Shown here: positions 1-33,451 of the stretch, one piece after another | Position numbering within the stretch: position 1 is the stretch's first letter | Layout: each line of letters starts with the position of its first letter | NCBI GenBank assembly: GCA_017438745.1 | Contig: JAFRUS010000088.1 | Location: 1-64,000, forward strand | DNA: 64,000 nt | Source of the DNA: Oscillospiraceae bacterium | GTDB lineage: Bacteria; Bacillota; Clostridia; Oscillospirales; Ruminococcaceae | Direction: 5' to 3' | The notes under the pieces: model-generated | What the model was told of the DNA's origin: nothing | Seen by the model: the letters and a program-made list of their open reading frames with translations, nothing else | The model's database searches: none | Translations under genes and position numbers: made by a program

Positions 1-144
1 AAGAAAATCGCAGAACTCACTGAGCAGAAAAATAAGAATTCAAACAACAGCTCCAAGCCCCCTTCAAGTGATGGCTTAAAGAAGAAAACCAAAAGTCTCA
101 GAGAAAAAACAGATAAAAAACAAGGCGGTCAGGAAGGTCATTGA
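1..144 (+). pseudogene. IS66-family transposase N-terminal fragment
   Basis: The frame open from base 1 encodes 47 residues and stops at a TGA at 142-144. It contains NSNNSSKPPSSDG, followed by a Lys-rich stretch and KKQGGQEGH, which matches the leucine-zipper/linker region near the N-terminus of IS66 transposases (TnpC type). The zinc-finger and DDE catalytic parts that should follow are absent, and unrelated sequence begins right after the stop. The 5' end lies outside the window. This is seen directly in the translation; the family call rests on the very characteristic SSKPPSSDG and GGQxGH motifs. Confidence 0.8.
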
Positions 145-208: not shown

Positions 209-883
209 ATGAACATATTATTTTGCAATATTGCATGGATGAAGTTTTATAATGGCAATCCTAATGGTACAGATCAGCCGCATGGCGGTGGCGAATATGT
301 TGAACGTACTGGGGATGCTCATGAAAAATTCAATTTTACTCCAACGAAAGTAAAATTTAATGAAATTGATCCTGCTGAAGAATACTGTGTCGGCTTTGTA
401 GAAACCAAATCCACAAACGGCGCAGAGTCTAATCAGTTGAACATTGAAAAAATAACAGGAAATAAAAAAGATAAAGCTGTGAATGTGGTTGATGACGTAC
501 TTGTAATTTACTGTGCTTTATATCCTTTTTCTAGTACTAATGAAACATACATCGTTGGCTGGTACAATAACGCAGAAGTATATCGCAAATATCAAAAATT
601 AGAATTTACTGATGACAACGGTGAAATAGTTTATGAACAGTACTATAATGCTATTTCGAAAATTGAAAATTGCGTTCTTCTTCCGGAAAGTGCAAGAAGA
701 AACCAGATGTGGCGAGTCCCACGTAAAAGAAAAGGAATGTCATTTGGCTTCGGTCAGGCTAATGTATGGTTTGCTCAGGGTGCTGACGAAAATCCTAAGC
801 TTCAGGAATTCCTTGATCGTATTGTAAAACAGATTGAAGAATATGATGGCGAAAACATGGTCGTGAATAATAAGAATACATAA
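209..883 (+). CDS. Conserved-looking hypothetical protein, first gene of helicase/GHKL module
   Basis: This 224-residue soluble protein starts at an ATG preceded by GAAAGGGG. The N-terminus MNILFCNIAWMKFYNG is followed by a GGGEYV segment, a YCVGFVETK strand and, centrally, YIVGWYNNAEVYRKY. The alternating beta strands with aromatic residues resemble PUA/EVE-like folds that read modified bases, but this is a structural impression and no catalytic motif is visible. It sits 61 bp upstream of an SNF2-like helicase and is probably co-transcribed with it and the GHKL ATPase. By position it could be the target-recognition or sensor subunit of that module. Function is not established. Confidence 0.6.
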   Translation: MNILFCNIAWMKFYNGNPNGTDQPHGGGEYVERTGDAHEKFNFTPTKVKFNEIDPAEEYCVGFVETKSTNGAESNQLNIEKITGNKKDKAVNVVDDVLVIYCALYPFSSTNETYIVGWYNNAEVYRKYQKLEFTDDNGEIVYEQYYNAISKIENCVLLPESARRNQMWRVPRKRKGMSFGFGQANVWFAQGADENPKLQEFLDRIVKQIEEYDGENMVVNNKNT

Positions 884-944
884 TTTTAATTTAGATGATA
901 TTAACGTTAAATTGATATCAATTTACAGAAAGTGAATTAAAGCC

Positions 945-3485
945 ATGAAATTTGAGAATCTTAAAACAATTACATTTTCAGAACTTAAACCAGCTTCTGA
1001 AAGAAGAACAACAGAAGAAGTTTCCCAGTATTTAAAAAACTTCGAAGATTGTATCGAAAACTACAGTACGGATTTCCCATTTTCTTTGCTCCACTATGCA
1101 TTTATTTTCAGACGATTTGATGCTGTATCTATGATTAAAGAAACTCTTTCTTATGAAGAATGGGAAGAAGCATTACATTTAGATGGAGCGGAAGGCTATG
1201 AATGGATCACGCCTCTTGTCTGTGCAAAGTGGAACTTATTTTATTTGTATGGATATGATTCCAAGAATAATAAAGGTTTTGCCGAAGAGCTTGAAAACAT
1301 GATGGACAATAAACTTGATCATATTGATGAAGTTATTGAATATACTGACATAGTTATAGATGATAAGACTAGAAAAGAAAACGTTTTTGATATATTCTGG
1401 GGTGCTCGTCAGCCTCTTCTCGATATTGTTTATTATGATAAGCAGGAACTCGCTTCAAAACAAGTCGAAAAAAATGGAGTATCGCTTGTAATGGATGAAG
1501 TAGGTACAGGTAAAACTGTATCAGCAATCTATGCTATCAGGAATGTTATTGAAAACTGTAATGAGAATGGCAGCAAAGCTCATATACTGATTGTATGCCC
1601 TCATAACAAGAGAGAAGACTGGCAGAATGATATCCGCAGACAGCTTGGACGTTATGCGCATATCGTTGAACAGGGTGATAATGGTGACATGTATCGTAAT
1701 GAGCTGAAAGATGCATTTTTTAAAGGTTCAGAAGAAGTGATAATGATTTCCGGCCAGAAAGGCGGCGGTGACGGTAAAAGTTCCTATACAGAACTAAAAG
1801 ACAGTGTAAAAAGCTATTCTTATGATCGGAAATGGGATCTTGTAATCATTGACGAAGGACATATTGCATTCGATAATTACTGGGCTTTAGCTGCTCATAA
1901 GGCTATGATTCTTACAGCTACACCTATAGTAATAAATGCATCCGGAAGACGTGTTTTTTCAGATTACCTGTCATTACTAAGCAATATTACAGGAAGAAGT
2001 GTTATGCACTATACTATCAGCCCTATTGAAAAATATGTTCCGGATGAAAATGATATCTATGTAAACTGGTTCAAGGAAGACATGAATGTTAAATCTGCTG
2101 AAAGAAATATTCAGTTTGTATCCTGTGAACGTGCTGAAGAAAGACATGAACTATTTAGAGATATCTATAGAGAAAAAAACGCATTGACTGCACTTCAGTA
2201 TGATCAGGACGATGATTACCTTTTCGATAATTACAACAAATTATTTGAAGGTGAAAACAAGATCCTTTTAAGAAATTATAAACTTGACAAACTTGTTGAA
2301 CTGCTTAGAGAAAACGAAAAGTCATATATAATATTCTGCGAACATGAGTTTGTAGCACTCCGGATATATGAACGCATCAAAGAAGAATTTTCAAATCCAA
2401 ATATTGTAATAGCTGAGAAGAACGGTAACAATGAAAATCAATATGGACTTGGAAATGTTCAGGACGGTCAGCTTATCAACACTCTTATACATGCTCTTCG
2501 TAATGAAAATAGGGTACTATTTGTTACTACAGGCAAGACAGGGGGTACCGGACTCAATCTTGGGGAGTTTGACGGTGTTATTCATTATGAGCTTCCATTT
2601 ACCAGCATTGAACTTGAACAACGATTTGGAAGAGTAGACCGTATAGATACTGGTCATGATTCAAAGAAACGCGACATGATTTTTATGCTTAATGAGTGCG
2701 GTGAAAACGACAATGACAATGAAATGAACCGTATGCTGTATTACTGCGTAAACAAGATTGATATAACATGTAAGTATATGCCGGTTCGAAATACAGTTTT
2801 GTATTATCCTGAGTTTATAAAACGAAACAGAGATGCTCTTATAAAGTCTCTTGAAGCTAAAACAACAAATATAGTCCTTTCAGAGCAAAATGAAGACGAA
2901 GTAAAAAAACATAAAGCTGAGCTGCGCAGGTATGAAAATAAGATTAAATCTGTTCCTGATCTGAGAATCATAATCCGCGAAGGGAAAAGTATACATGATT
3001 GTGCTGACGAAGCTTTAAATTCTGAAAAAAACTGTAATATTTCTGATACATCATATACTTTGCTGTCTGAATATATTAATAACTGGAGTGAGTATAGAGA
3101 CAGTATAAACACGTACAACAGAGAATATCGAGAATTCTATAGACTAAGAAGACAAGTAAGAAACTGGCTTGCAATAATCGGTTTAATGAAAGTGGAACAT
3201 GAAGAAGATATTCTTACGGGATATGAAGAGACCAATGACTATTTTGATCAACATCAGCAGAAATTTATACCGCTTTCAGAAGCAGACGATGAAACTAATT
3301 CAGATGATTCAAATTCTGTTCAGAAACAAATATTCGAATTGATCAACCAAATTAATGAATATGATTTCGATAATCTTAAGTTAAAAGGATTTTCATCGGA
3401 TGGAGTATTCTGCTTAATTGATGGTAACATTCATAGATCAGATGTTCAGTCGTACAGAAACGGAACCGGATTGCAAGTGAGGTGA
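945..3485 (+). CDS. SNF2/DEAD-type superfamily 2 helicase of putative defence module
   Basis: This 846-residue ATPase has both RecA-like lobes of a superfamily 2 helicase/translocase. Lobe one has Walker A DEVGTGKT (about residues 184-191), motif II DEGH (303-306, a variant of DEAH) and motif III TATP (324-327). Lobe two has GKTGGTGLNL and QRFGRVDRID (about 530-566), the typical SNF2 motifs V and VI. The N-terminal 150 residues match nothing I recognise. The C-terminal 280 residues are charged and helical, with no nuclease motif seen. The stop lies 6 bp before the GHKL ATPase gene, so coupled translation is likely. Such ATPases drive DNA translocation in restriction and phage-defence complexes; that role here is inferred from context. 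Confidence 0.85.
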   Translation: MKFENLKTITFSELKPASERRTTEEVSQYLKNFEDCIENYSTDFPFSLLHYAFIFRRFDAVSMIKETLSYEEWEEALHLDGAEGYEWITPLVCAKWNLFYLYGYDSKNNKGFAEELENMMDNKLDHIDEVIEYTDIVIDDKTRKENVFDIFWGARQPLLDIVYYDKQELASKQVEKNGVSLVMDEVGTGKTVSAIYAIRNVIENCNENGSKAHILIVCPHNKREDWQNDIRRQLGRYAHIVEQGDNGDMYRNELKDAFFKGSEEVIMISGQKGGGDGKSSYTELKDSVKSYSYDRKWDLVIIDEGHIAFDNYWALAAHKAMILTATPIVINASGRRVFSDYLSLLSNITGRSVMHYTISPIEKYVPDENDIYVNWFKEDMNVKSAERNIQFVSCERAEERHELFRDIYREKNALTALQYDQDDDYLFDNYNKLFEGENKILLRNYKLDKLVELLRENEKSYIIFCEHEFVALRIYERIKEEFSNPNIVIAEKNGNNENQYGLGNVQDGQLINTLIHALRNENRVLFVTTGKTGGTGLNLGEFDGVIHYELPFTSIELEQRFGRVDRIDTGHDSKKRDMIFMLNECGENDNDNEMNRMLYYCVNKIDITCKYMPVRNTVLYYPEFIKRNRDALIKSLEAKTTNIVLSEQNEDEVKKHKAELRRYENKIKSVPDLRIIIREGKSIHDCADEALNSEKNCNISDTSYTLLSEYINNWSEYRDSINTYNREYREFYRLRRQVRNWLAIIGLMKVEHEEDILTGYEETNDYFDQHQQKFIPLSEADDETNSDDSNSVQKQIFELINQINEYDFDNLKLKGFSSDGVFCLIDGNIHRSDVQSYRNGTGLQVR

Positions 3486-3491
3486 AAGAAT

Positions 3492-6400
3492 ATGGCGGCA
3501 ACATATCAGGAAATAAATGAAATACTGGCTAGCTTAAAGGATACTACTGAAACAAAAAAAGCTGATCGATTTCTTACAGAAGGCGTTGGTGACAAACCTG
3601 AATGGCTCGATGCTTTTTTTGACCCCAATAAAAGAAAGCTTAATGAAACTATCATTAGAGCTATTTCATCAAGGGCTGGTATGACATCTTTGAGTGGTTA
3701 TAGCGAAGGATATTTCAATGAGATAATACAGAACGCTAATGATCTTCATGCTGGAGATTGTATTGATATAGAATTAGGTAAAAACGGTACAGTATATTCA
3801 GTAAAGTGTGTGTATCAGGATAAAGGGTTTATACTTTCAAATATTTATGCTCTTCTTAACAGAGAGATGTCTGATAAATCTTCTGAAAAAGGACAGACTG
3901 GAAAATTTGGAGTCGGAATTAAATCTTTTTTTAAGTTTGTAAATAGATTCAGGATAGAAAGTAATGTTATATTTGATTTTAAAATTGACCGTACCACTAA
4001 TCAAGTGACCGATAGTACAGTATCAGTAAATGATAGCTGGAACAAAGAAAACACTGTTCTGTATTTTGAATACACGCGCGATGAAAATACAGGATTTAAT
4101 TTCAATACTCGTAAACTCAGCGATTTAATTGAATATTTTGACGGAAACGGAGACGGAGAAATTTTAGAATTTTTCTTTGATGGTGAAGACAAGAAGATGG
4201 TATTTGATATTCGTTCACTTATTTTTATGAATCTAAATCCATTGGAAAAAAATATATCAAAGATTAATTTTTCCGGACGCTGCCATAATGTATCAGTTAT
4301 ATGCGAAAACAACTATGAACTTCAGTCTTTTGAATATGAAAAGCAAAAATGGGAAATAACCAATATTTTTCTTAGTATTCTTCTTGATGACAGCACTTAC
4401 AAAAGACATAAATACATCACTTTCACACATTCCGGTACTTCGCTTAGTTTTCCTGTATCCATTGAATTAGGTGGCTATAACAGAATCTACTCTACCTATT
4501 ATATCAAAAGTGATGATCAGTGTAACATTTTTCATATCGGGATGCTGGTTAATACGTCATCGGCTAATCTTCACAGAAACGATCTTGCAGATAATGAAAA
4601 ATCGATAAAAAAAGCGTATAAAAAGATAAAAGATGTTTTTATTGATATGCTTTGGTTCATGTGTTCGCCTGAAATAAAGAATTCAAATTGTATTGATGAC
4701 ATCAGTGATATTTTCCATTCAATTTTATTAATATATCTGGATGAAGATAAAGACCAGTATGATGAAAGTCCTTTTAATCAGAACGGACTCGACAACCGGT
4801 ATCTTCCTAAAATATCTGATAACCCGAAAATGGATATTGTTTTCCATAGAAGTGAGGAAAATTATCAGAAATACTCATTTCGTGATCAGAGTTCTGTATC
4901 TGAATTGACAGAGACATATTTTAGGGCTATTGAAAAAGATAATGTTATTGATTATAATGAAGTTGTTGATTCTGGTATCTATGGTGTAAGTAAACTCTAC
5001 GAAAAAATAAAGGATTACTATGGAAATAATGAAAACTATGCGCTGGCAGTTAGTTCGCTTCATTATTATTCAAGCGTCGCCGTTTACATAGCATACGTTA
5101 TTTCAGGAGAACACCGTGCTGAACCGTTCCTGTATGATAATGAAATTGATGAGTGGCTGTACAAATTAAAAAACGACCTGAAAGAAAATTATAATCAGGA
5201 AATATTACTTAAACTTATAGGTCGATACGGATTAAATTCCGCAATTGCTTTTGATGGTGCATTACGTAAAGAAAAACTAAGCTTTAGTGATTATCTGTTC
5301 AATGGTTTGCCGGAACTGAAAGACGGAACTCTGTCTAACTGGCAAAATGAAATGTATGACCACAAGTATAGGGAAATGAAACGCCAGGTTACTGGAAACA
5401 GAGTCATTGATCCCGGAAATCAATCTAACACCTTTAAAATCAGATATATTGAGCCACAAGGTCCTTCAAGACGAAGATGGGATGAAATATATGATTATTA
5501 CGGACATAATATAATACATTGCGATGTTTCCGAGGAAAACAAATTGGTCTTACTCGATAAAATTGCGGCTGATTATAATCTTATAAGAAAGATAAATCCC
5601 AATAATATGTGGCTGTTTGAGAAAAATGTCATTTCAATGAGGTGTAGAGCTAAGTATTTTGAGCATTGTTATCCTGAACGTGAGCAGCAAATTCTATGTA
5701 TTGATTATTTAAGAAAAATCAATCTGACAGATTTTGGAGATTTCTTGCACGCTGTTAATTGCCGAAAAACCATAAAAGCATATAAACCTTCTATAGGTAT
5801 CAGTATTAAATGCGACCAGTCTTTTGTAACAACTTATAATATCGTTAGTGACTTTTTACCGTACCTTGTCGGAATGCATGATGAAACTAGTCAAACCGCC
5901 TGTCTTAGGAATGAATATAATGAAAAAGATGTTATTATTCATAAAATAGGAGCTAATACAACGAATGAATTGCCTGAAGAAAACCAAAGATTCATTTTTA
6001 AGCTTTCCGGGTTTAATGTACACCTTAATCATTTTAATTCCGGAAGTAAGAATTACATGATTTCTTACTTTGGAAACAATACTGCTGCTATAAAAACATC
6101 TGCTAAAGATTCTTTTAAACCGATAGCCACATACAATTCATCAGATAAGAATGCTTATATTTTCTATGATAACGTTCCCGAGCCGCAGAAAGTAGTTGCT
6201 GAAGTTTTAAAAAACATGAACATATCTAAGAACCTTATGGAGCTTCTTGTAGGATATATTCATAATGGTAATGAAACAAAAACCGTGAATTATCTAGCCA
6301 GACGAAGAACTTTCGCTAAGATCAAGAAAAGTCTAGAATGGGACTGGTCTGATGTTTCTACTGACAATGTTCATGTTTCTGAGAATACAGAAGTTATGTA

Positions 6401-6764
6401 CAGACTTCTTACTGCCAGGGGAAGCTACGATATTTACTGTCCAATATGTTCTGATATTTCCCTTGAAACTTTTAATTACGGAGAAGACACCAAAAACAAA
6501 CACAGCAGAAGAATCATAGTAATGGAAAATGAAAATAAAGCTACAAACGCTGAGTTTCCGTATATAATAACTGTTAGCTGTTCCTATTGCTTTGAAAAAC
6601 TTCGAAATACTCTTAGCAAATCAGAATTTGACGGCACAAGTTTAACTCTGACCACTCAAATATCACAGGGTCAGCACGAAAGAATGCGAAGCCGTCATCA
6701 GATAAAAATTTCTCCGATAAATATACAGATAATGAAAAGCTTTAAGTTTGGGAAAAATAGTTAA
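3492..6764 (+). CDS. Large GHKL (Hsp90/sacsin/MORC-like) ATPase of putative defence module
   Basis: This 1090-residue protein starts at an ATG preceded by GAGGTGAAAG. The N-terminus carries a GHKL ATP-binding fold: N-box EIIQNANDL (E77, N81, D84), G1-type DKGF (110-113) and ATP-lid/G2 GQTGKFGVGIKS (134-145). Near the C-terminus CPIC and CSYC about 60 residues apart suggest a zinc ribbon. No nuclease motif is visible in between. GHKL ATPases of the MutL/MORC and sacsin types are known beside SNF2 helicases in bacterial restriction-like systems, where ATP-driven dimer closure clamps DNA. Here it follows the helicase gene by 6 bp. The exact role is inferred. Confidence 0.8.
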   Translation: MAATYQEINEILASLKDTTETKKADRFLTEGVGDKPEWLDAFFDPNKRKLNETIIRAISSRAGMTSLSGYSEGYFNEIIQNANDLHAGDCIDIELGKNGTVYSVKCVYQDKGFILSNIYALLNREMSDKSSEKGQTGKFGVGIKSFFKFVNRFRIESNVIFDFKIDRTTNQVTDSTVSVNDSWNKENTVLYFEYTRDENTGFNFNTRKLSDLIEYFDGNGDGEILEFFFDGEDKKMVFDIRSLIFMNLNPLEKNISKINFSGRCHNVSVICENNYELQSFEYEKQKWEITNIFLSILLDDSTYKRHKYITFTHSGTSLSFPVSIELGGYNRIYSTYYIKSDDQCNIFHIGMLVNTSSANLHRNDLADNEKSIKKAYKKIKDVFIDMLWFMCSPEIKNSNCIDDISDIFHSILLIYLDEDKDQYDESPFNQNGLDNRYLPKISDNPKMDIVFHRSEENYQKYSFRDQSSVSELTETYFRAIEKDNVIDYNEVVDSGIYGVSKLYEKIKDYYGNNENYALAVSSLHYYSSVAVYIAYVISGEHRAEPFLYDNEIDEWLYKLKNDLKENYNQEILLKLIGRYGLNSAIAFDGALRKEKLSFSDYLFNGLPELKDGTLSNWQNEMYDHKYREMKRQVTGNRVIDPGNQSNTFKIRYIEPQGPSRRRWDEIYDYYGHNIIHCDVSEENKLVLLDKIAADYNLIRKINPNNMWLFEKNVISMRCRAKYFEHCYPEREQQILCIDYLRKINLTDFGDFLHAVNCRKTIKAYKPSIGISIKCDQSFVTTYNIVSDFLPYLVGMHDETSQTACLRNEYNEKDVIIHKIGANTTNELPEENQRFIFKLSGFNVHLNHFNSGSKNYMISYFGNNTAAIKTSAKDSFKPIATYNSSDKNAYIFYDNVPEPQKVVAEVLKNMNISKNLMELLVGYIHNGNETKTVNYLARRRTFAKIKKSLEWDWSDVSTDNVHVSENTEVMYRLLTARGSYDIYCPICSDISLETFNYGEDTKNKHSRRIIVMENENKATNAEFPYIITVSCSYCFEKLRNTLSKSEFDGTSLTLTTQISQGQHERMRSRHQIKISPINIQIMKSFKFGKNS

Positions 6765-19475: not shown

Positions 19476-19694
19476 ATGGCAGAGATAATGGAAAAGAATG
19501 AACTGGATTATACCTGTGGACTTTCAGACGATGAATTAACTGAAAGATTCATAGCGTCAATTCGTATTGATGAAGAAATCAGAAAAATCAAAGGTTTACC
19601 AAGCGCAAGATACGATGATGAAACTAAACGTGCTTATCTTGAATACCCTGATGGGAGAATAGAATATGTTGGAAAACAAAATAAAACTACCTGA
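19476..19694 (+). CDS. Putative antitoxin of zeta-type kinase pair
   Basis: The 72-residue acidic protein starts at ATG 19476; GAGAGG sits too close to the earlier ATG 19467. It has DDELTERFIASIRIDEEIRK and a C-terminal SARYDDETKRAYLEYPDGRI, predicted as a helix followed by a beta hairpin. It overlaps the zeta-like toxin gene by 29 bp, the typical arrangement of a toxin-antitoxin pair. It does not look like the classical epsilon antitoxin; the assignment rests on gene order and size. Confidence 0.6.
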   Translation: MAEIMEKNELDYTCGLSDDELTERFIASIRIDEEIRKIKGLPSARYDDETKRAYLEYPDGRIEYVGKQNKTT

Positions 19695-20262
19695 AGTAAT
19701 TGTATTTGCGGGGCCTAATGGCAGCGGTAAATCTACTATTACCAAAATGGCTAAAACTGTTGGTAAATATATAAACGCAGATGATATTAAAAGTGCTATT
19801 CACTGTACTGACCTCGAAGCAGCTCAAAAGGCAGAAAGATTAAGAAATCTGGCGATTGATGAACATGAAGATTTTACTTTTGAAACAGTTCTTTCTACTG
19901 ACAGAAATCTTGAATTACTGAGGCGTGCAAAAAATGCCGGATACTTTATACGAGGAATATATGTTCTTACAGCAGATCCAGAGATCAATGTGGCTAGAGT
20001 TAATGCAAGAGTTGCTTTAGGAGGCCATGACGTACCTGAAGAAAAGATCATCAGTCGTTATGAACGGGCATTAAATCTTATACCTCAGCTTGTTGAAGTA
20101 TGCGATATTTTACATATTTATGATAATACTAAATTACCGTTCAGAATTTTCAAGAAAAGAAAGACAGTTTACTATCATTGGAGCAATAAATACTGGGATA
20201 AACAAGCTGTTTCCAAACTGACCGGAATACCACTGGAAAGTTTTGAAGAAATCAATAATTAA
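19666..20262 (+). CDS. Zeta-toxin-like P-loop kinase
   Basis: This 198-residue protein has Walker A GPNGSGKS at residues 16-23, NADDI (38-42, the catalytic Asp region of zeta toxins), FETVLST at about 66-72 and RVALGGHDVPEEKIISRYER, all features of the zeta/UNG1-kinase family. These enzymes phosphorylate UDP-N-acetylamino sugars and block peptidoglycan synthesis. The start at 19666 overlaps the upstream antitoxin-like gene, implying translational coupling. A housekeeping kinase of the same family cannot be excluded. Confidence 0.8.
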   Translation: MLENKIKLPEVIVFAGPNGSGKSTITKMAKTVGKYINADDIKSAIHCTDLEAAQKAERLRNLAIDEHEDFTFETVLSTDRNLELLRRAKNAGYFIRGIYVLTADPEINVARVNARVALGGHDVPEEKIISRYERALNLIPQLVEVCDILHIYDNTKLPFRIFKKRKTVYYHWSNKYWDKQAVSKLTGIPLESFEEINN

Positions 20263-22012: not shown

Positions 22013-23332
22013 TCAGATAATATTCGGAACGATCCCGTGTTTGATGTGATTACGGTAGAAAACATTCACTCCGAAATAGAACATGGATGTAAACGGACGG
22101 ATGAGGAAATTTCTTGTAAATATCGTCCGCTTCAGTATGCACCTGTAGGAGTAGACTTCGTTGTACAGATCCCAGTAGGCTTTTGTAAGCTGTTCAGGGG
22201 TCATGTTTTTCGGGTAGTGTACCGCTTCACATGAATTGTACGAGTACATATCAGTGTTATAGATGCGGTCCTGCTTTTTCATTTCATCGTAATACTGGGT
22301 TCCCGGAATCGGAGTTAAAATGTAGAAGCGCGGAACGGTTATATGGTTCCGTTCAACAAATCCGGCAGTTGCTTTGATCGATTCGAGTGTGTCGCCTTCC
22401 GCACCTACCACCATTTCCGTTGAAATGTCAATGCCGTGCTTTCGTATTGTTTCAAGCTGGCGGCTGTATCTGTCCGGATGTGCCCATGCTTTCTGCATGC
22501 CGACAAGACTTTCACGGCTTATGCTTTCAAGTCCGAAGCTCAGTACGTAGCATCCGCTGTCATGAACAGCATTAAGCAGTTCTTCGTCTTCAGCGATGTC
22601 GATGGAACACTGCGTCATCCATTTCATTTTCAGTTTCCTTATTTCATTACAGAGCTCCAAAGCGTAGTCGCGGTTTGAAAAGAGGTTGTCATCGAGAAGG
22701 AGAAACTGTCTGAAACCAAGTTCCTTTACCCGTTTTATATCCCTGATCACGTCAGGAATGCTTCTTTTGAGATACTGACCGTGGTAGAGACAGTAGATGG
22801 AGCAGAAACTGCATGTCTTCGGGCAGCCTCTTCCGGCCTGAACGGGGAGAAAGTTTCCTATTTTTTTGTTTAACAGGAGTTCATAGCGCGGAAGAGGCGT
22901 TACCAGTTCGGTGAGTTTCTTCCGGTATGTTTTTTTCAGCGTACCGTTCAGATAATCATTTATCATTTCGCCCCAGGTTTCCTCGGCATCGCCTATCATA
23001 ACCGCATCACAGTATTTCTGAGCTTCCTCCGGCATGAGAGAGACCATATATCCGCCGAGGATAACAGTCTTTCCGAGTTCACGGAATTTTTTTGCGATGT
23101 CGATTGTTCTCATAACAGCATGACCCATGCTGCTGATGCCGATGAGTTCAGCATCGGTGTCGAACGGAACGTTTTCGATGGTTTCATAGCACAGATCCAC
23201 TTCAAAATCATCAGGAGTGAGTGCGGCAAGAAGAGGGAGGGCCAGACCGACAAAGTAGAGCCTTTTCTTTTTTACAAGGTTGCCGTACTGATCGTATGGT
23301 GTAGGCTGTATGAGCAATATTTTCTTTTTCAT
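22013..23332 (-). CDS. B12-binding-type radical SAM enzyme, cluster member 5
   Basis: The 439-residue protein has an N-terminal cobalamin-binding-like Rossmann domain (MKKKILLIQPTPYDQYG, LIGISSMGHAVM, VILGGYMVSLMPEEA) without the DxHxxG histidine, and a radical SAM core with C170-x3-C174-x2-C177 (GRGCPKTCSFC). Downstream segments STEMVVGAEGDT and LTPIPGTQYYDEM are typical of the family. It is the last gene of the operon, 17 bp after the previous stop, and is more distant from the other four copies, resembling HpnJ-like proteins. Reactions in this family include C-methylation, ring contraction and C-C bond formation; the substrate is unknown. Confidence 0.85.
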   Translation of the reverse strand: MKKKILLIQPTPYDQYGNLVKKKRLYFVGLALPLLAALTPDDFEVDLCYETIENVPFDTDAELIGISSMGHAVMRTIDIAKKFRELGKTVILGGYMVSLMPEEAQKYCDAVMIGDAEETWGEMINDYLNGTLKKTYRKKLTELVTPLPRYELLLNKKIGNFLPVQAGRGCPKTCSFCSIYCLYHGQYLKRSIPDVIRDIKRVKELGFRQFLLLDDNLFSNRDYALELCNEIRKLKMKWMTQCSIDIAEDEELLNAVHDSGCYVLSFGLESISRESLVGMQKAWAHPDRYSRQLETIRKHGIDISTEMVVGAEGDTLESIKATAGFVERNHITVPRFYILTPIPGTQYYDEMKKQDRIYNTDMYSYNSCEAVHYPKNMTPEQLTKAYWDLYNEVYSYRCILKRTIFTRNFLIRPFTSMFYFGVNVFYRNHIKHGIVPNII

Positions 23333-23349
23333 TTTTCCCCCTTGTTTTA

Positions 23350-24702
23350 TCAGAAACTGAAGAGGCGTTTCAGCCTGATCAGAAGTACCTTTAAAATAAA
23401 CAGTGTGCTTTGAAAATAATTATTCTCACTGTAGAGCGGAGAGTTTCTGTTCTTCCACGCAAGCTTCAGTGACAGCCTGTAGTACTGGAATGTGAAAGCT
23501 GCGGTACTCATGTGTTCGGGTTTCAGAAGGCAGTGGAACAGATCCTGTTTTGTAACGTCGTCTGTAATGAGTTTTCCTTCGTATTGTTTGTAGACAGCTG
23601 ATCCCTGCATCGGAGTGAATACTGAAACAGTCGGAATAATATCCTTCTCGGCTATCCATTTATAAAGCCGGTCGAAATCTGCTTTTTTCATACCCTGATG
23701 AACGATGAAAAGTCCCGCACAAAGGATATTGTTTTCACTGAGTATACGTATGCATTCAAGGTTTTCATCTGCAGTTGTGTGCTTGTTGTAGGATTCGAGT
23801 TCTCCGTCATCAGCTGATTCAAGGCCTACCATGACAAGAGCAAGACCGATACCGGCAAGTTCCTTCATGATGTCAGCGTTCTTTGCTATAAAGTCTGCTC
23901 TGCCGTAGATGAGATATTTTTTATGAATATCCTTTTCCTTTATGAGCCGGATAAATTCCGTGAGGTATTCACGGCTTACGAGAAAGTTGTCATCGGTAAT
24001 ATGTACGTTCGGCACGTCAAGTGATGCAATCTCGTTTACAAGGCTTTCAGCGCTTCTGCATGCGTAGTGTCCGCCGTTACGATTGGTACAGAAACAGAAA
24101 CTGCATTTCATCGGGCAGCTGAAGGAGTTCTTGACAAGTGCAAGAGGTCTGAAGCAGAGGTAACGGAAATGTTTCCGGTTACTGTAGAAAAAGCTTCTGT
24201 CCGGAACGGGAAGGGATTCAGGGCTCTCATTCACTTTAGGATTTGCTTTCCATGAGCCATCCCTGCGGAAACATATTCCCGGAATATCATCCGGTGAGCC
24301 TTTTTCCTCAATGCATTTTAATAGCTTTACAAGATTGTCAAGTCCGCTGAGATGATATAGATAATCGGCTTCCGATCCGAAGTAGTTTTCGTAATTGATC
24401 TCCACATTGGAGCCGCCGAGTATCACTTTTATATGCGGGTCGTATTTCTTTATTTCACTGCAGAAACGTATCATGAGTTTCTGCTGGGTGATGTATCCGG
24501 TTATGCATACAACATCGGGTCTCTCTATTTTCAGTTTCTTTCTGAGCGATGTGATGTCGTATCGTCTGTCCCAGATAACAGCTTCATGACCGTTGTTTCT
24601 GAAAGCGGTGAAGAGATATTCCATTTCAAGAGGTTCGTGATCAACCAGATTGGTGAAACTGAAAATCCCGACAGTCTCAGGTTTGATAAGAAGTATTTTC
24701 AT
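23350..24702 (-). CDS. B12-binding-type radical SAM enzyme, cluster member 4
   Basis: The 450-residue protein has the same two-domain plan: Rossmann-like N-terminus (MKILLIKPETVG, CITGYITQQKL, VILGGSNVEINYENYF) and radical SAM motif C196-x3-C200-x2-C203 (FSCPMKCSFCFC), with LVMVGLESADDGELESYNKH later. It is paralogous to the products at 24707, 26031 and 27365, sharing the YNKxT-xxEN and GLFV blocks. The gene starts 4 bp after the preceding stop. No cobalamin-ligating His motif is visible, as in many relatives that bind the cofactor base-off. Substrate unknown. Confidence 0.85.
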   Translation of the reverse strand: MKILLIKPETVGIFSFTNLVDHEPLEMEYLFTAFRNNGHEAVIWDRRYDITSLRKKLKIERPDVVCITGYITQQKLMIRFCSEIKKYDPHIKVILGGSNVEINYENYFGSEADYLYHLSGLDNLVKLLKCIEEKGSPDDIPGICFRRDGSWKANPKVNESPESLPVPDRSFFYSNRKHFRYLCFRPLALVKNSFSCPMKCSFCFCTNRNGGHYACRSAESLVNEIASLDVPNVHITDDNFLVSREYLTEFIRLIKEKDIHKKYLIYGRADFIAKNADIMKELAGIGLALVMVGLESADDGELESYNKHTTADENLECIRILSENNILCAGLFIVHQGMKKADFDRLYKWIAEKDIIPTVSVFTPMQGSAVYKQYEGKLITDDVTKQDLFHCLLKPEHMSTAAFTFQYYRLSLKLAWKNRNSPLYSENNYFQSTLFILKVLLIRLKRLFSF

Positions 24703-24706
24703 GGCA

Positions 24707-26029
24707 CTATTTTTCTTCAGAGCCGTTGCGGTATTTCCTGTTGAACAGGTCAGTGATACCGGCCCAGTAGATACGCGGATAGTTTACGTAGTAGAGAAAA
24801 TCAAATTCCATTTTGAAAAGGAGCATCGGCAGTTTTGAAGGCTTTATTAAAATGCTCGTTCCGCCGGTGCGTTTGTATTTGTACTTGTACAGTCTGTCCT
24901 TGTTTTCCTCGTACATTGCAGTTCCTTTGAAAGGAATGAGAATGCTGAACAGCACCCAGATAAGTTTTTCATCGCGTATGAACCTGTTTATCGCCATGAA
25001 ATCTTTATGTGTAAAATCGTAGTTTATAACGAAGAGTCCGACACAGACCATATTGTGCCTGCGCAGGATACTGATCGCCTGTCTGTTGAGATGAACGCTT
25101 GAATTCTTGTTGTATTTTTCGAGAGTAGTATCCTCGACGGCTTCCAGTCCGACAAGCATGTCACGGAAGCCTGCTTTGTAGATAAGCGGCATGATATCGC
25201 GGCAGCGAACTATACTGTCGGCTCTTGCAAATATCATAAACGTCTTTTTGCATCCGAGTTCCAGAAGCTTTCTGCATATCCGGATGACACGTTCACGGTT
25301 TACAAGAAAATCATCGTCTATAATGAATATTTTATCGTTTTTTATACTCATTATCTCTTCAATGATCTCTCCGTCCTCACGTTCCCTGTATGTGCAGCTG
25401 TTGAACTGACGGGAAATGCAGAAATTACACTGCTGCGGACATGAGAAAGAAGTTTTCATTACTGAAAAACATCCCTTGGCAAGAACGCGGAACTTGTCTT
25501 GGTTGTCATAGAAATGGCTTCTGTCCGGAAAAATTCCGTAGCTGTTTACCGGTTCACCTTTCGGATTAGCCACCCATTTTCCGTTCAGACGAAATGCGTG
25601 ACCGGTGCATTTTTTCATAACCTCAGGCCTGAAATCGCCGCGTACAGCTTTGCGGAAAGAATCAAGACCGTTGTCGTATGAGAGAAAGTCTATACCTTTT
25701 TTCATGAAATCACGGTAGTTGATTATAACTTCGGGACCTCCGACCATGATCTTTACCTTCGGGCGGGCGGCACGCAGCTTTGCTATAAGTTCAAGTACGT
25801 ACCATGCAGTATTGGAAATAACGGAAAACCCGACGAATGTAATTTTATAACGGTCTATCTTTTCAAGAAGACGGCGGAAACGTCCGAACGGACCCTCGAT
25901 GCCCTCGTCATGTATCCAGCATTCTCTTCCTTCAGCTTTGACACATGCCATGAGATATTCGAGACCGAGAGGCTCAAGACTGGCTACACGGGTGTCATAG
26001 TGGACACGGACAAATAAATATCTTTCCAT
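24707..26029 (-). CDS. B12-binding-type radical SAM enzyme, cluster member 3
   Basis: The 440-residue paralogue has MERYLFVRVHYDTRVASLEP at the N-terminus, IMVGGPEVIINYRDF in the Rossmann-like domain and C197-x3-C201-x2-C204 (FSCPQQCNFC) for the 4Fe-4S cluster; DMLVGLEAVEDTTLEKYNKN follows. The gap to the upstream gene is one base, so translation is coupled. It is closest to the product of 26031-27368, with which it shares the SLEPLGLEYL and VNGF/VNSY-PDR blocks, suggesting a tandem duplication. Confidence 0.85.
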   Translation of the reverse strand: MERYLFVRVHYDTRVASLEPLGLEYLMACVKAEGRECWIHDEGIEGPFGRFRRLLEKIDRYKITFVGFSVISNTAWYVLELIAKLRAARPKVKIMVGGPEVIINYRDFMKKGIDFLSYDNGLDSFRKAVRGDFRPEVMKKCTGHAFRLNGKWVANPKGEPVNSYGIFPDRSHFYDNQDKFRVLAKGCFSVMKTSFSCPQQCNFCISRQFNSCTYREREDGEIIEEIMSIKNDKIFIIDDDFLVNRERVIRICRKLLELGCKKTFMIFARADSIVRCRDIMPLIYKAGFRDMLVGLEAVEDTTLEKYNKNSSVHLNRQAISILRRHNMVCVGLFVINYDFTHKDFMAINRFIRDEKLIWVLFSILIPFKGTAMYEENKDRLYKYKYKRTGGTSILIKPSKLPMLLFKMEFDFLYYVNYPRIYWAGITDLFNRKYRNGSEEK

Positions 26030-26030
26030 A

Positions 26031-27368
26031 TCAGAACCAGCCTTTCTTCATTGTGTCATAACCGGTACCGGTGAGTGTACGTGTCATGATCTTCGGGTAG
26101 GTGATGAGGTGGAGCGCATAGTAGCGGAGCATGAATTCGACGGATGACATGTTCTCGGGTTTTATTGTTATATGGGTTCCGTCAAGCCTCCATGACCTGA
26201 AGTTTATGAGCTGATCCCTGTACTCATCATATGCGTCAGTACCTTTGTACGGAGTGAAAATTCCGAAAACTACCCACAGAAGATTGTTCTCCTTTATAAA
26301 CTTCAGAAGATTGCTGAAATCTTTGCGTGTTGCAGTATGGCTGATAACGAAAAGTCCGTTGCACGCAATGTGGTTTTTATGAAGATTGCGTATGGCTGCG
26401 ATGTTTTCTTCTCTGGTAGTCTGCTTGTTGTAGTCGGTGAGCTGGTCATCTGTAATAGCTTCAAGACCGACAAGAATATCACGGAATCCTGCCCGGTAGG
26501 CGAGGGGAAGAACCTCCGGATGTTCAGCAAGGAAGTCGGCACGGGAATATGCCATAAAGTTCTTTTTTATTCCGCGTCTGATGACCTCGCGGCAGAAAGC
26601 TGTAACACGGTCTGTGTCGAAGAAGAAGGTGTCGTCTACAAACCAGATCCTGTCGTGTCTGATTTCCTGTATTTCATCGACAACTTCCATGATGTTTCGT
26701 TCAGTGTATTTTCCGCTGTTCATTTTTGTGCAGTAGCAGAAGCTGCAGCGGAACGGACATGAGAAGGAAGCTTTGCTGAGCGCGTACTTTCCTTTCATGA
26801 AGATGAAGTTCTTTTTAAGACCCTTGTAGAATGCAGTCCTGTCAGGCTTTACGATGAATCCGTTCACCGGAGCCCCTTTTTTCTTTACGATCCAGCCTTT
26901 GTCACCGCGGTAGCATATGCCGGTCTGACGGGAAAAAACTTCTTTGGTAAGCCCTTCGGTCCAGATATTTTTAAGTGTGGCAAGTCCGTTGTCGTGGTAA
27001 ACAAGATCAGTATACTTTGTACAGAAATCACGGTAGTTAAGTTCTGCTTCCGGACCGCCTACCATGATAAATATTCCGGGAAATCTCTGCTTGAGCTGAT
27101 ACGCGCGGAGTTTTATATAATCCACTGTGTTTGCATTTGAATTGAATCCGATGAAATTATATCCGCCTTCCTCAATGATCCGGCACATTCTTTCAAAACG
27201 GAATGTCCACGGATACTGGAATTCATCATGAATGCGGCATTCTATGTTAAGTTCATTCGCAAGTCCTGCGAGGTATTCGAGTCCAAGCGGTTCAAGATTT
27301 GCAACTATGGAAGAATATTTCGGCCTTATAAGAAGGACTTTAAGCTTTTTTTCTGCCTTTTTCATCAT
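26031..27368 (-). CDS. B12-binding-type radical SAM enzyme, cluster member 2
   Basis: The start is placed at 27368 because GGAGGC lies just before an ATGATG there and the ATG overlaps the TGA of the upstream gene; the frame is open to 27470 but that part lies inside the neighbour. The 445-residue product has MVGGPEAELNYRDF in the N-terminal domain and C204-x3-C208-x2-C211 (FSCPFRCSFCYC). It carries DILVGLEAITDDQLTDYNKQ and a C-terminal ITIKPENMSSVEF segment shared by its paralogues. Presumed 4Fe-4S/SAM enzyme with cobalamin-type domain; substrate unknown. Confidence 0.85.
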   Translation of the reverse strand: MMKKAEKKLKVLLIRPKYSSIVANLEPLGLEYLAGLANELNIECRIHDEFQYPWTFRFERMCRIIEEGGYNFIGFNSNANTVDYIKLRAYQLKQRFPGIFIMVGGPEAELNYRDFCTKYTDLVYHDNGLATLKNIWTEGLTKEVFSRQTGICYRGDKGWIVKKKGAPVNGFIVKPDRTAFYKGLKKNFIFMKGKYALSKASFSCPFRCSFCYCTKMNSGKYTERNIMEVVDEIQEIRHDRIWFVDDTFFFDTDRVTAFCREVIRRGIKKNFMAYSRADFLAEHPEVLPLAYRAGFRDILVGLEAITDDQLTDYNKQTTREENIAAIRNLHKNHIACNGLFVISHTATRKDFSNLLKFIKENNLLWVVFGIFTPYKGTDAYDEYRDQLINFRSWRLDGTHITIKPENMSSVEFMLRYYALHLITYPKIMTRTLTGTGYDTMKKGWF

Positions 27369-28729
27369 CTGCCTCCAATCAGTTTTTTCCAGTACTGAGT
27401 GTTCACTTTTGCTGCGCCCCAGGTAAGTTTGAGCGTGTCGTGAAGTCCGTACTTCTTTATCATATACCATGCGCTTACAGGATTTGCAGTGATTTTATAG
27501 TAGAGCACCATGGTGTACCAGTAATAGCGTCGTACGGAGATCTTATCAGGTTTTACAACAAGATGCGCAAGATCCCATTTTTCGTATTCATCTTCCCGGA
27601 CAATAAAGCGCGGACGGTATTTATCATAGAGTTCCGTGCCGCGCAGAGGTGTCAGCGGCTGCAGATTTACAAAAACAAGACCGAGTTTTTTTATCCAGCG
27701 ATAAAGTGCATTAAAGTCTTCCTTTGTCCAGTCCAGACCGAGAATGAAGGTGCCGTAGCATTCAACACCGTACTTTGACAGTATGCTAACTGCTTTTTCG
27801 TTTATATTAACATTGGTGCGCTTGTTGTAGTCATCGAGCTGACGTGAGTCGCATGATTCGAGTCCGACGATGACTGCGCGCAGACCGACCTGCTTGAAGC
27901 GACTGATCACATCTTCGTTGGCTGCAATAAAGTCAGCTCTTCCGTAGATGAGATATTTTTTCTCTATGCCGTTTTTTTCGAGCATATCGCAGAACTGAAG
28001 TATACGTTCACGTCCCACGAGAAAGTCATCGTCAACGATGTAGATCTCGGTTTCCTTTATCTGAGACAGTTCATTTACTATATCGTCAAGAGACCGTGCA
28101 AAATACTTGTCGTCCATGATCTGACGGCAGAAACAGAATTTACAGTTGTAAGGACAGCCGAATGAAGTCTTGATAAGGCTGCAGTTACGGTGAAACATGT
28201 AGTAGTAATGTTTACGGTATTTACTGACCTTGTTTCTGTCCGGATAGAGGTAGGGGAATGTAGTTTCCTTTTCCGGAGCCGGTTTGTCCCTGTGATAAAT
28301 GCAGTCTATATCACCAGCCGGGGTCTTTCCTTCGAGACTGTCAAGTATTTCGGTAAATGTACGTATACCGTTTGCACGTATGATGAAGTCAACGTATTCT
28401 GATTCAAAATCCTGCGGGTTTACTTCTGCGTGAACACCGCCGATTATCGTTTTGATACGGCTGTCGCAGAGTTTGACTTCGCGGGCGTACGATTTCATTA
28501 TATTAACATGCGAGATATATCCGGTTATACCCACAACGTCAGGATGAAATTCCTCCACGAAGTACCGGACACTTTTCTTTTCTATTATCATGTCAATGAT
28601 TCGGCATTCGTGTCCGGCAGCTTCAATGTTTGCAGATATGTATTCGAGTTCAAGCGGCTCACATATCATGACGTTCTGAAGTCCGATCGTTTCCTTGTCC
28701 GGTCTTGGCCTGAAAAGCAGTACTTTCAT
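27365..28729 (-). CDS. B12-binding-type radical SAM enzyme, cluster member 1
   Basis: The 454-residue protein has MKVLLFRPRPDKETIG, VVGITGYISHVNIM and TIIGGVHAEVNPQDFES in the N-terminal Rossmann-like domain and C192-x3-C196-x2-C199 (FGCPYNCKFCFC) in the SAM barrel. It is the first of the five radical SAM genes, 50 bp after the FemAB-like gene; the upstream AATGAGGTAATT is a plausible ribosome site. The C-terminal 120 residues (AHLVVKPDKISVRRYYWYTM) are shared with members 2-4 and may shape the substrate or carrier site. Confidence 0.85.
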   Translation of the reverse strand: MKVLLFRPRPDKETIGLQNVMICEPLELEYISANIEAAGHECRIIDMIIEKKSVRYFVEEFHPDVVGITGYISHVNIMKSYAREVKLCDSRIKTIIGGVHAEVNPQDFESEYVDFIIRANGIRTFTEILDSLEGKTPAGDIDCIYHRDKPAPEKETTFPYLYPDRNKVSKYRKHYYYMFHRNCSLIKTSFGCPYNCKFCFCRQIMDDKYFARSLDDIVNELSQIKETEIYIVDDDFLVGRERILQFCDMLEKNGIEKKYLIYGRADFIAANEDVISRFKQVGLRAVIVGLESCDSRQLDDYNKRTNVNINEKAVSILSKYGVECYGTFILGLDWTKEDFNALYRWIKKLGLVFVNLQPLTPLRGTELYDKYRPRFIVREDEYEKWDLAHLVVKPDKISVRRYYWYTMVLYYKITANPVSAWYMIKKYGLHDTLKLTWGAAKVNTQYWKKLIGGR

Positions 28730-28779
28730 AATTACCTCATTGATTTCTCCGTCGTTCAGAAAAGCTGACCGTGCGGAAG

Positions 28780-29784
28780 TTATTTGCTGAAAACCTTGTG
28801 ATCAGGAAAGCTGTATCTGTATTCGAGAATGCGTTTTCCTGCCATGGCAAAAAGATTGAGAAAAATATTTGTGTGATGAGCGCAGAAATAGCGTCTGTTA
28901 AGCAGGGCGCCGAACCTCAGCTTTGTTGTTTCCGAAGTCTGACCGAAATCAACGGTACGGCATCCGTTCTGTATTGCGTATTCCACGATCTTGAAGAGCA
29001 TAAGGAAGTAGAGATCAGCTGTTTCATAACGGTAGTCCATGCCGCAGAGCATGAATACCAGCTCGCAGCCGTTCCTTTTCAGAAGAACGAATCCCGTCGG
29101 TTCGCCGTTTCGTAAAAACAGGATCCTGTCGCCCTGCACACGGTCAAAGAATGCTTTTTCAAGACATTCGAGTTTATAGTCAGAACGTTCAAATGTCTGA
29201 AGATAGAGCGGATGAACGTCTGTGCTTCCGTCGTGGATCAGTTTTACAGTTATATCACTGCATCTTTTCAGTGCCAGATTTATACGCCTTCTGTATGCGC
29301 TCCTCATGGAAGCAAGATAGTCGTCAGTGCTTTTAATATTTTCCGGTATTGTCAGGACACATGACGGAAGAGTTTCGCCGTTTGCCATGCCTCTGACTTT
29401 TACCTGTTCGGGAATATTGAGCACCAGCTTGCATCCGCGTATGGTCTTTATGTATTCAAGCATCATTATAATGTCGTTTGTTATGTATCCGCCTGTGCTG
29501 AGTGAACAGGGAAATGCTATCGTCTGGATGTTCATGAAAAATTTAGCTTTTCCAAACGTGAAAAGATCCATGCGGTTAAGATACATGGTGAAGAAAGCAT
29601 ATTTTTCACCGCATTCCAGAAAATAATATTTCTGCGGCAGAGGATTGGCTGTTCTTAGAAGAGTAAGCATTTCCTGCGTGAAAGGCCACGGAAGCTCCGA
29701 TTCCGGAAAGTCTTTTCTGATGGCAGAGCTTTTTCGCATTATTCCGAATATTTCTTCCGGAGACTCACTGATGCTCACTTTCAT
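28780..29784 (-). CDS. FemAB/GNAT-like acyltransferase
   Basis: The frame is open to 29877 but overlaps the upstream gene by 89 bp; ATG 29784, 4 bp after that stop, is the most economical start (29808 is an alternative; neither has a strong ribosome site). The roughly 334-residue protein has two GNAT-like halves; the second has FLRNGEPTGFVLLKRNGCEL and TADLYFLMLFKIVEYAIQNG, then VDFGQTSETTKLRFGA, characteristic of the Acetyltransf_6/FemAB-like families that transfer acyl or aminoacyl groups. In context it may transfer the acyl chain from the ACP to an amine or sugar acceptor. Confidence 0.7.
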   Translation of the reverse strand: MKVSISESPEEIFGIMRKSSAIRKDFPESELPWPFTQEMLTLLRTANPLPQKYYFLECGEKYAFFTMYLNRMDLFTFGKAKFFMNIQTIAFPCSLSTGGYITNDIIMMLEYIKTIRGCKLVLNIPEQVKVRGMANGETLPSCVLTIPENIKSTDDYLASMRSAYRRRINLALKRCSDITVKLIHDGSTDVHPLYLQTFERSDYKLECLEKAFFDRVQGDRILFLRNGEPTGFVLLKRNGCELVFMLCGMDYRYETADLYFLMLFKIVEYAIQNGCRTVDFGQTSETTKLRFGALLNRRYFCAHHTNIFLNLFAMAGKRILEYRYSFPDHKVFSK

Positions 29785-29788
29785 GTCA

Positions 29789-30877
29789 TTATTTAATGTC
29801 TTTTTCATATACAGTATATTTTTTATACGTTTCATCGCAGAGAGCCTTGCAGAAACTGTTTGAGTCCGTGTTTTCATCGAGGATCCAGGAAGTTTCCATC
29901 TGTACGCATCCCTGTTTTTTCATTGAGTCGTAAACGTGCTTTATAAGTGCCATCGGAAGTCCGGAAGACCGGTATTCTTTAAGTACTCCGTATTCCATTA
30001 CCTTGCCTGTTCTGATGCTCTTTCCTTTAAGAAGGTTAAGGAAAAAATGTTTCGTTCCGAATGCTTCTCCCGGGGCGGCTAGTTCGTTCCAGTCGGGATA
30101 CCACATGATAAAACCGACCGGTTTGCCGTTGTGATAAGCGAAAACAAGAGAATTCTCCTTCATGAACAGGAAAAGAGTTTTCAGCATTTCGCAGTCATCT
30201 TCATAGCAGCGTTTATAGTAGTAGCGGTGTTCCGTAAAGCATGAGTTGTTAAGATCAGTATAGATCTTTGCATATTCGGTGAACCTGCTTTTGTCGAAAC
30301 AGCGGAATTCGTATGAACGTTCCAGTTTTGCGATGAGTCTGTCAAAACGTTTAAGGCGGTCATCGAGCTTTGAAGTGAAGTATGAACTGAGTCCGGTCTC
30401 GCTGCAGCCAAGACTGCGGAAGTAGTCGTTGTAGTAAGCAGGATTGCCCGGGGATGAGAAGGAATTCTTCTTTTCAAAATGGGAATCAAGAAGGCCGAGT
30501 CCGTAGTTGACATGGCCGTAAAGACCGATGACGACCTTGCTGCATCCGTGTTCCTTTCCGATTTTCTCAGTTTCACGGACAAGCATTTCTGCTGCGTCAG
30601 CTCTGTCAGGCAGAGATTCGAAAAAACAGAGCTGTATGTATTCCGGAAGCTCCTTTGTATAAGCTGTGATCCCGCAGCAGATTATCTCCCCGTTTTCAGT
30701 TACCATGAGGGGACAGACGGACATGTTTTTGATGAAATTCAGTTTCCCCGAGAAGATCTCCTTAAGCATATAGTAGTTGTTGTCAACATAAATACCCTGA
30801 CCGGAATACAGCTTTTTCCTGAAGTCAAGAAGCCTTTTCTGAAGAGCTCTGCTGTCTGCTCTGATAACTTCTGTCAT
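29789..30877 (-). CDS. GNAT-family acyltransferase
   Basis: The 362-residue protein has a C-terminal GNAT fold: SLVFAYHNGKPVGFIMWYPD (beta 4), KVMEYGVLKEYRSSGLPMAL (the acyl-CoA/ACP pyrophosphate loop R-x-x-G-x-A variant) and MKKQGCVQMETSWILDENTD. The N-terminal half resembles a second, degenerate GNAT lobe. The start overlaps the ACP gene's stop by four bases (ATGA), showing translational coupling. With its neighbour it provides two acyl-transfer steps for the ACP-bound product; the acceptor is unknown. Confidence 0.75.
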   Translation of the reverse strand: MTEVIRADSRALQKRLLDFRKKLYSGQGIYVDNNYYMLKEIFSGKLNFIKNMSVCPLMVTENGEIICCGITAYTKELPEYIQLCFFESLPDRADAAEMLVRETEKIGKEHGCSKVVIGLYGHVNYGLGLLDSHFEKKNSFSSPGNPAYYNDYFRSLGCSETGLSSYFTSKLDDRLKRFDRLIAKLERSYEFRCFDKSRFTEYAKIYTDLNNSCFTEHRYYYKRCYEDDCEMLKTLFLFMKENSLVFAYHNGKPVGFIMWYPDWNELAAPGEAFGTKHFFLNLLKGKSIRTGKVMEYGVLKEYRSSGLPMALIKHVYDSMKKQGCVQMETSWILDENTDSNSFCKALCDETYKKYTVYEKDIK

Positions 30878-31104
30878 CTTTTCTGTCCTGTCAGTTTTTC
30901 AAGAAGAGCACTCATTTCTCCGACTGTATTCAGATGACGGTATTCTTCTTCTTCGATCTCAATCCCGAATTCCTCTTCGGCAATACACAGAAGGTTCATA
31001 AGGTCGAAGGAATTCAGTCCGAGATCTGTCTTGAAGTTCATTTCCGGTGACAGATTATTTATTCCGTACTCTTTTGAGAGCAGTTTTTTTATTTCATCAA
31101 ACAT
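30874..31104 (-). CDS. Acyl carrier protein
   Basis: The 76-residue acidic helical protein has DLGLNSFDLMNLL, in which the Ser is the expected attachment point for 4'-phosphopantetheine, followed by the acidic helix III region EEEFGIEIEEEEY. Size and pattern fit a free-standing ACP. It overlaps the ligase stop by 8 bp and the GNAT start by 4 bp, so it is made together with them. It is not beside fab genes, which argues for a dedicated secondary-metabolism or modified-lipid carrier. Confidence 0.9.
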   Translation of the reverse strand: MFDEIKKLLSKEYGINNLSPEMNFKTDLGLNSFDLMNLLCIAEEEFGIEIEEEEYRHLNTVGEMSALLEKLTGQKR

Positions 31105-33214: not shown

Positions 33215-33451
33215 ATGTCAGCATTACAGTTACAGGCTTATGAATTAATGGGAAAACTGAGTGAAAGTAAGCTTCAGCTTATCATTGAAATTATGAATGG
33301 TTTTATAAATACCGCAGATGAGGGAAACAATGAAGTGGTAAAAGAAAGAAGACCTATAGGTATGTTTGAAGGCGAGAAATTCCTTGCTGATAATTATGAT
33401 ATTGACGATGATAATGATGAAATAGCTGCTATGTTTGGAGTAAGTGAATGA
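33215..33451 (+). CDS. Antitoxin of PIN-domain toxin pair
   Basis: The 78-residue acidic protein starts behind GGGAGGGATG. The N-terminal half (LQAYELMGKLSESKLQLIIE) is the helical segment found in many small clostridial antitoxins that precede PIN toxins; the C-terminal half has RRPIGMFEGEKFLADN and a run of Asp/Asn residues, a flexible acidic tail suited to wrapping a toxin. Its stop overlaps the toxin start by four bases (ATGA). It probably also represses the promoter upstream. Confidence 0.75.
   Translation: MSALQLQAYELMGKLSESKLQLIIEIMNGFINTADEGNNEVVKERRPIGMFEGEKFLADNYDIDDDNDEIAAMFGVSE

Follow-up and report, generated by a model that had tools for sequence, protein, structure and literature searches.

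A predicted two-gene defence module pairing an SNF2-type helicase with an Hsp90/sacsin-type ATPase among distantly related Firmicutes

Genome context has revealed GHKL ATPases beside superfamily 2 (SF2) helicases since the study of Iyer, Abhiman and Aravind (2008; PMC2292703), which describes laterally mobile prokaryotic operons of MORC or paraMORC ATPases with SFII helicases, one class of which contains SWI2/SNF2 proteins, often with HNH. In CoCoNuT and other Hsp70-bearing conflict systems, Hsp70-like proteins and RNases are grouped in large superoperons (PMC11090510, PMC7159879). Here a related arrangement is reported from contig JAFRUS010000088.1 of an Oscillospiraceae bacterium (assembly GCA_017438745.1), positions 1 to 64,000, the whole of which is referred to as the window. 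It consists of an SNF2-type helicase gene followed by a gene for an Hsp90/sacsin-type GHKL ATPase, and these two form one co-inherited, laterally moving and rare unit among distantly related Firmicutes. The pair is probably an unnamed bacterial defence module, a role predicted because it moves as a unit between distant Firmicutes, often beside known anti-virus systems. With neither methylase nor fixed nuclease, it is called here a new form of the known GHKL and SF2-helicase conflict system, its newness resting on the lack of a match to any named system tested.

Three open reading frames (ORFs), all on the forward strand, are found at 209-883 (224 amino acids), 945-3485 (846 amino acids) and 3492-6764 (1090 amino acids), with intergenic gaps of 61 bp between the small gene and the helicase gene and 6 bp between the helicase and ATPase genes. 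These positions and spacings, given in a preliminary description made from the sequence alone, were exact on re-examination; a transcript common to all three genes is suggested by the spacing only. The second and third ORFs are the core genes 1 and 2 of the pair.

A profile search of 84,980 species genomes recovered at least 11 loci, the number being a lower bound because only candidates containing either of two short peptides were considered; a search of plasmids added a further copy in Lysinibacillus capsici. The SNF2 gene lies directly 5' of the GHKL gene, on the same strand, in nine of nine intact genomic relatives and in the plasmid copy, the gaps between the two genes ranging from -56 to +21 nt across loci. 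One further locus (L019) is truncated, with the end of its helicase gene at a contig edge, and another (L027) is a decayed copy in which the ATPase is split and the helicase is missing. Identities among relatives of the pair range from 20 to 74%; the closest relative, L017, has a helicase 73% and an ATPase 59% identical to the window proteins. The identity matrices of helicase and ATPase are strongly correlated (Mantel r = 0.97, p = 1e-4; 10 loci, window included), and maximum-likelihood trees of the two proteins, compared unrooted for the loci they share, branch in the same order. Both contradict host taxonomy: two Paenibacillus loci are placed far apart, one of them as sister to a Lachnospiraceae/Oscillospiraceae clade with 100% support. 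No relative of the ATPase was found in three congeners searched or in nearly all of about 245 genomes of the family, and the pair is present in one of 341 genomes of the class. No third gene is conserved across the loci of the pair that were inspected.

The helicase (945-3485, +) is an SNF2/SWI2-type SF2 helicase or translocase of the RapA/DrmD/DpdE class. Complete SF2 motifs had been read from its sequence, and this reading agrees with the domain matches (SNF2-rel_dom at 1.9e-14, ResIII and Helicase_C) and with the retention of DEVGTGK, DE.H, TATP and LEQR.GR..R across relatives. Its nearest solved structures are those of RapA, and its nearest defence helicases are DrmD of DISARM, DpdE of Dpd and BrxHII of BREX, all of the same SNF2 class. 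It differs from these three in scoring far below the curated cut-offs where such exist (69.9 against 500 bits for DpdE, 55.7 against 610 for DrmD), and in that their partner genes are not seen.

The ATPase (3492-6764, +) possesses the GHKL motifs E77-II-QNAND (N-box), D110xGF and G137xxGxG, followed far downstream by a zinc-ribbon-like C983xxC986...C1030xxC1033 (residues 983-1033; 6438-6590, +). All of these are invariant in 11 of 11 sequences, in keeping with the motifs and C-terminal zinc ribbon previously ascribed to it. The sequence matches the sacsin-type GHKL model NF047352 of NCBIfam at 5e-12, just below the curated cut-off, and Pfam SACS is found in 6 of 11 members, the best at 1.7e-8. 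Profile alignment with HHalign gives E = 7.6e-4 for HtpG and 0.11 for MutL. A model was built with AlphaFold2 from an 11-sequence alignment (mean predicted local distance difference test score, pLDDT, 71), in which residues 45-450 (3624-4841, +) are predicted to fold as a GHKL domain with an Hsp90/GyrB-like middle (transducer) domain; over 274-298 residues this part resembles Hsp90 and GyrB with Z 11.6 and a root-mean-square deviation of 4.2-5.0. The best Foldseek match is yeast Hsc82 (6.8e-8), and MORC3 and GyrB likewise match by fold. The arginine of the NxSR motif of Hsp90 is catalytic. The corresponding R362 (N-x-x-R) is invariant, the motif reading NVSR, NPSR or NSSR in four divergent members (L022-L025) and NISR in seven HtpG proteins; residues 360-367 of the model have low confidence, so that the assignment of R362 rests on sequence. 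On the grounds of the fold of the ATPase and middle domains, the NxxR arginine and the preference of HHalign for HtpG over MutL, the protein looks to belong to the Hsp90/sacsin branch rather than to MORC/MutL. The earlier mention of MORC/MutL/sacsin types is refined by a preference for sacsin, on the SACS matches, the HHalign scores and the NxSR-like arginine; the profile scores point away from MutL, and MORC is the less likely placement. With Hsp90, HtpG and sacsin the protein shares ATPase motifs, middle domain and catalytic-arginine motif; it differs from them in its long C-terminal part, about 630 residues (461-1090) that are unannotated apart from the invariant CxxC...CxxC, and in that its gene is coupled to one for a DNA translocase. 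The window's own genome also encodes another, distant GHKL protein of the sacsin type (1062 amino acids; contig C37, 744-3932; L066), with no helicase alongside.

PADLOC and NCBIfam returned for the pair generic helicase-core or GHKL-domain matches only and no named system, as the preliminary description had anticipated in its failure to name one. A keyword search of the literature, with most subscription papers outside its reach, gave no passage describing an SNF2 and Hsp90-like pair. Variants of DISARM and Druantia had been proposed for comparison, and neither is present. The DISARM set of DrmA, DrmB (DUF1998), DrmC (PLD) and methylase was found neither next to the window pair nor at the relatives inspected, and the DrmD and DrmA models match the helicase core only, far below cut-off; no Druantia model is found among the listed matches and no DUF1998 in the Pfam scans. 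Hma is likewise rejected: HmaA matches only the helicase core, the window pair has no adjoining methylase, and the ATPase matches only TmtA. The TmtA model of PADLOC, which denotes Tiamat, matches ATPase residues 76-221 at 1e-8, a likeness due to a sacsin-like GHKL domain. Tiamat is nevertheless set aside, as only 80-214 of 1486 TmtA model positions are matched, and the TmtA models have 1486-1655 positions against 1090 amino acids in the window ATPase, which is always paired with an SNF2 helicase.

The relatives of the pair are often found near defence genes. L017 is flanked upstream by the JetA1/JetC1 genes of Wadjet I and downstream by a JetA2/JetC2 (Wadjet II) operon in convergent orientation, a sandwich that is hard to attribute to chance. 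AbiH follows L021, a TIR protein follows L022, and a HerA-like gene precedes L023; on the Lysinibacillus plasmid, PD-(D/E)XK and UvrD genes precede the pair and a type IIG restriction-modification (RM) enzyme follows it. The island-like location proposed for the window locus is supported by these Wadjet I and II, AbiH, TIR and type IIG RM neighbours of its relatives and by the low G+C content of the module region, 34% against 40% in the rest of the window. In two Lachnospiraceae (L018 and L020) the pair forms the 3' end of a long same-strand cluster containing Hsp70-like proteins of 487, 561 and 495/501 amino acids (and one of 943 amino acids in one genome), coiled-coil and unknown proteins, and a PIN-Hsp70 fusion, the PIN domain being scanned in one genome and its counterpart in the other recognised by sequence. 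The helicases of these two loci are extended at the N-terminus by a Cys-containing stretch of about 160 residues, as if adapted to new partners. The clusters are comparable to CoCoNuT-type systems in joining Hsp70-like proteins with RNases, and differ in that no McrB/CnuC, vWA-MoxR or GTPase core is recognised in them and that the pair elsewhere has no Hsp70s. The clusters upstream of L018 and L020 are designated L033 and L034; an MBL protein with an RMMBL RNA-specificity domain is found in L034 only.

The best overall explanation, to which about even chances are given, is a mobile two-gene module directed against viruses or mobile elements, in which an SNF2 double-stranded DNA translocase and an Hsp90/sacsin-type ATPase act as one complex. 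A more detailed mechanism can be offered tentatively, in which an Hsp90-like clamp, delivered by the motor to invader nucleoprotein, either blocks this or recruits an effector. The SNF2 motor would track along invading DNA, or strip proteins such as RNA polymerase or the replisome from it. The Hsp90-like protein would use its ATPase and middle domains to dimerise, forming an ATP-gated clamp, loaded or triggered by the motor, that might grip a DNA or protein target through the large C-terminal region and the Cys4 site. Phage replication or transcription would then be stalled, or a nuclease recruited. The effector may be exchangeable: candidates are PIN-Hsp70 and MBL-type RNase-like genes in the two Lachnospiraceae and perhaps AddAB-like genes of the Lysinibacillus plasmid; in the window no effector is recognisable. 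Analogues are offered by Hachiman, in which a nuclease is kept in check by a sensor helicase and later freed by it (PMC12278908, PMC10925250), and by VcSduA, for which a GHKL clamp controlling a nuclease has been proposed (PMC12137116). An immune complex built as a chaperone machine with the pair at its core is unlikely but conceivable: a dedicated Hsp90-like clamp, joined in some hosts by several dedicated Hsp70-like ATPases, would act with the SNF2 motor and PIN/MBL RNases, the chaperone ATP cycle sensing and inactivating invader nucleoprotein.

Several observations weigh against a defence role for the pair. No copies of the ATPase are found in viral contigs or phage records, and an SNF2 profile scan of the viral contigs gave 12 weak helicase matches. 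Neither the helicase nor the ATPase has a nuclease or killing domain, ATPase residues 461-1090 being barely covered by these comparisons; the fold-search matches extend over residues 45-450 only. The evidence from defence neighbours, with no baseline frequency of such genes within 10 kb to set it against, is suggestive rather than statistical, and at several loci (L024-L026) no defence neighbour is recognised. Finally, a distant helicase-GHKL branch from one related genus (L013, L067 and L068) is found among housekeeping genes, its pairs lying at different chromosomal places among core genes, and the Walker A of its helicase is degenerate (P-loop DEYGSDKA in L013). This branch fits a housekeeping role at least there, a warning that some members may have no part in defence.

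These distant pairs, which lie among the core genes of three genomes from a single genus, also favour the strongest rival, chaperone-type quality control of DNA or RNA that is not primarily defensive, in which an Hsp90-like clamp and a RapA-like remodeller would clear stalled RNA polymerase or protein-DNA complexes. RapA and Hsp90 are indeed the nearest solved relatives of the two proteins, and several Hsp70-like proteins adjoin the pair in L018 and L020. The very patchy distribution, lateral transfer, plasmid carriage and Wadjet, AbiH and RM neighbours are less readily explained in this way, and quality control is considered an unlikely account.

It is improbable that the pair is a divergent MORC/paraMORC-like restriction system whose nuclease is concealed either within the last 630 residues of the ATPase or at the helicase end. 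Such a system has precedents in the MORC/paraMORC and SFII helicase operons (PMC2292703) and in V. cholerae SduA, which joins a GHKL domain to a PD-(D/E)xK nuclease (PMC12137116). Those operons resemble the window pair in setting a GHKL ATPase beside an SF2 helicase and in their lateral mobility. The window ATPase differs from theirs in being of the Hsp90/sacsin type rather than MutL-like, with its NxSR-like arginine and its 630-residue C-terminal region containing the Cys4 site. No methylase adjoins the pair in the loci inspected, barring the separate IIG enzyme of the plasmid; no Pfam nuclease is detected in any of the 11 ATPase members, in line with the earlier failure to see a nuclease motif; and the invariant C-terminal residues are mainly the four cysteines, with no invariant D/E/K or H catalytic set. 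Nor do the loci inspected show a third conserved gene, for a methylase or nuclease, as a MORC/paraMORC restriction operon would have.

The small upstream protein (209-883, +) is not featureless. It belongs to a modular, restriction-like family as a lone N-terminal domain, presumably with a sensing role; other members end in HNH (L014, L015) or TPR (L016), and those on plasmids in HNH or NOV_C/DUF3883. The HNH parts show a likeness to the restriction enzyme McrA and a weak one to TagI. The nuclease half is missing from the window copy, which has neither HNH nor NOV_C, and the 61-bp gap is too short to house it. A single-sequence structure model was uninformative (pLDDT 30), and no relatives were found in viral contigs. 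No ORF resembling the small protein is found near the other copies of the pair, L017 included, and its plasmid-borne relatives sit among other genes. Of the three-gene module proposed in the preliminary description, the helicase and ATPase do co-occur; the small gene adjoins none of their relatives, so that co-occurrence fails for the first gene and clearly holds for the second and third, and the three-gene module is rejected. The small gene is probably outside the conserved module; it might have been acquired separately as a gene for a sensor domain, or serve at most as an accessory of this one locus. A genuine three-gene defence system, in which the small protein would sense the target and the SNF2 motor together with the GHKL ATPase would be the effector, is the least probable rival and a very doubtful one: the common strand, the 61-bp gap, the fusion of small-protein relatives to HNH or NOV_C in restriction-like proteins and the GHKL, SWI2/SNF2 and HNH operons described by Iyer et al. 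(PMC2292703) speak for it, but the small gene has no counterpart even beside L017 with its 73% identical helicase, its plasmid relatives keep other company, and a palindrome stands between it and the pair.

This palindrome, TAAATTGATATCAATTTA (908-925, no strand assigned), lies in the 61-bp gap before the helicase gene and, with its perfect 18 bp, is the longest perfect palindrome in the window. It could act as an operator that sets the pair apart from the small gene, which is a guess from the sequence; it is not conserved and is not found upstream of other loci of the pair. A promoter scan was no better than chance, no terminator was found, and the RNA fold of the gap is not significant (z -1.3). 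A truncated piece of an IS66-type transposase (KPPSSDG... in frame-1 translation, stop at 142-144) occupies 1-144 (+) at the contig end, confirming the IS66 remnant noted earlier directly upstream of the genes; bases 1-59 share 98% identity with G000:C7, and further copies of bases 140-167 occur elsewhere in the genome. Base 1 of the window is the end of contig C50, so that the sequence further upstream is cut off.

Elsewhere in the window, an 87-amino-acid ORF (59303-59566, +) contains a SCIFF ranthipeptide precursor doubled in tandem (TIGR03973, two stretches), and a radical SAM maturase (TIGR03974; 59679-61067, +) adjoins it. Tandem B12/radical-SAM-like proteins, a small acyl-carrier-like protein and an acyl-CoA-ligase-like protein at 22013-32662 (-) resemble an uncharacterised biosynthetic cluster. 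A zeta-toxin-like P-loop protein (19666-20262) and a small VapC/PIN-like protein (33448-33852) were recognised by eye; the NCBIfam scan gave neither a name.

The gene set is thereby corrected, and a definition of the module should exclude the small upstream protein. The L017 pair, between its two Wadjet operons, is a ready locus to clone. If the defence role is true, the constant pairing of an Hsp90/sacsin-type ATPase and a DNA motor would offer a testable example, defined by two genes, of chaperone-like ATPases that serve bacterial immunity, and the pair may help to explain the role of bacterial sacsin-like proteins, relatives of the human ataxia protein.

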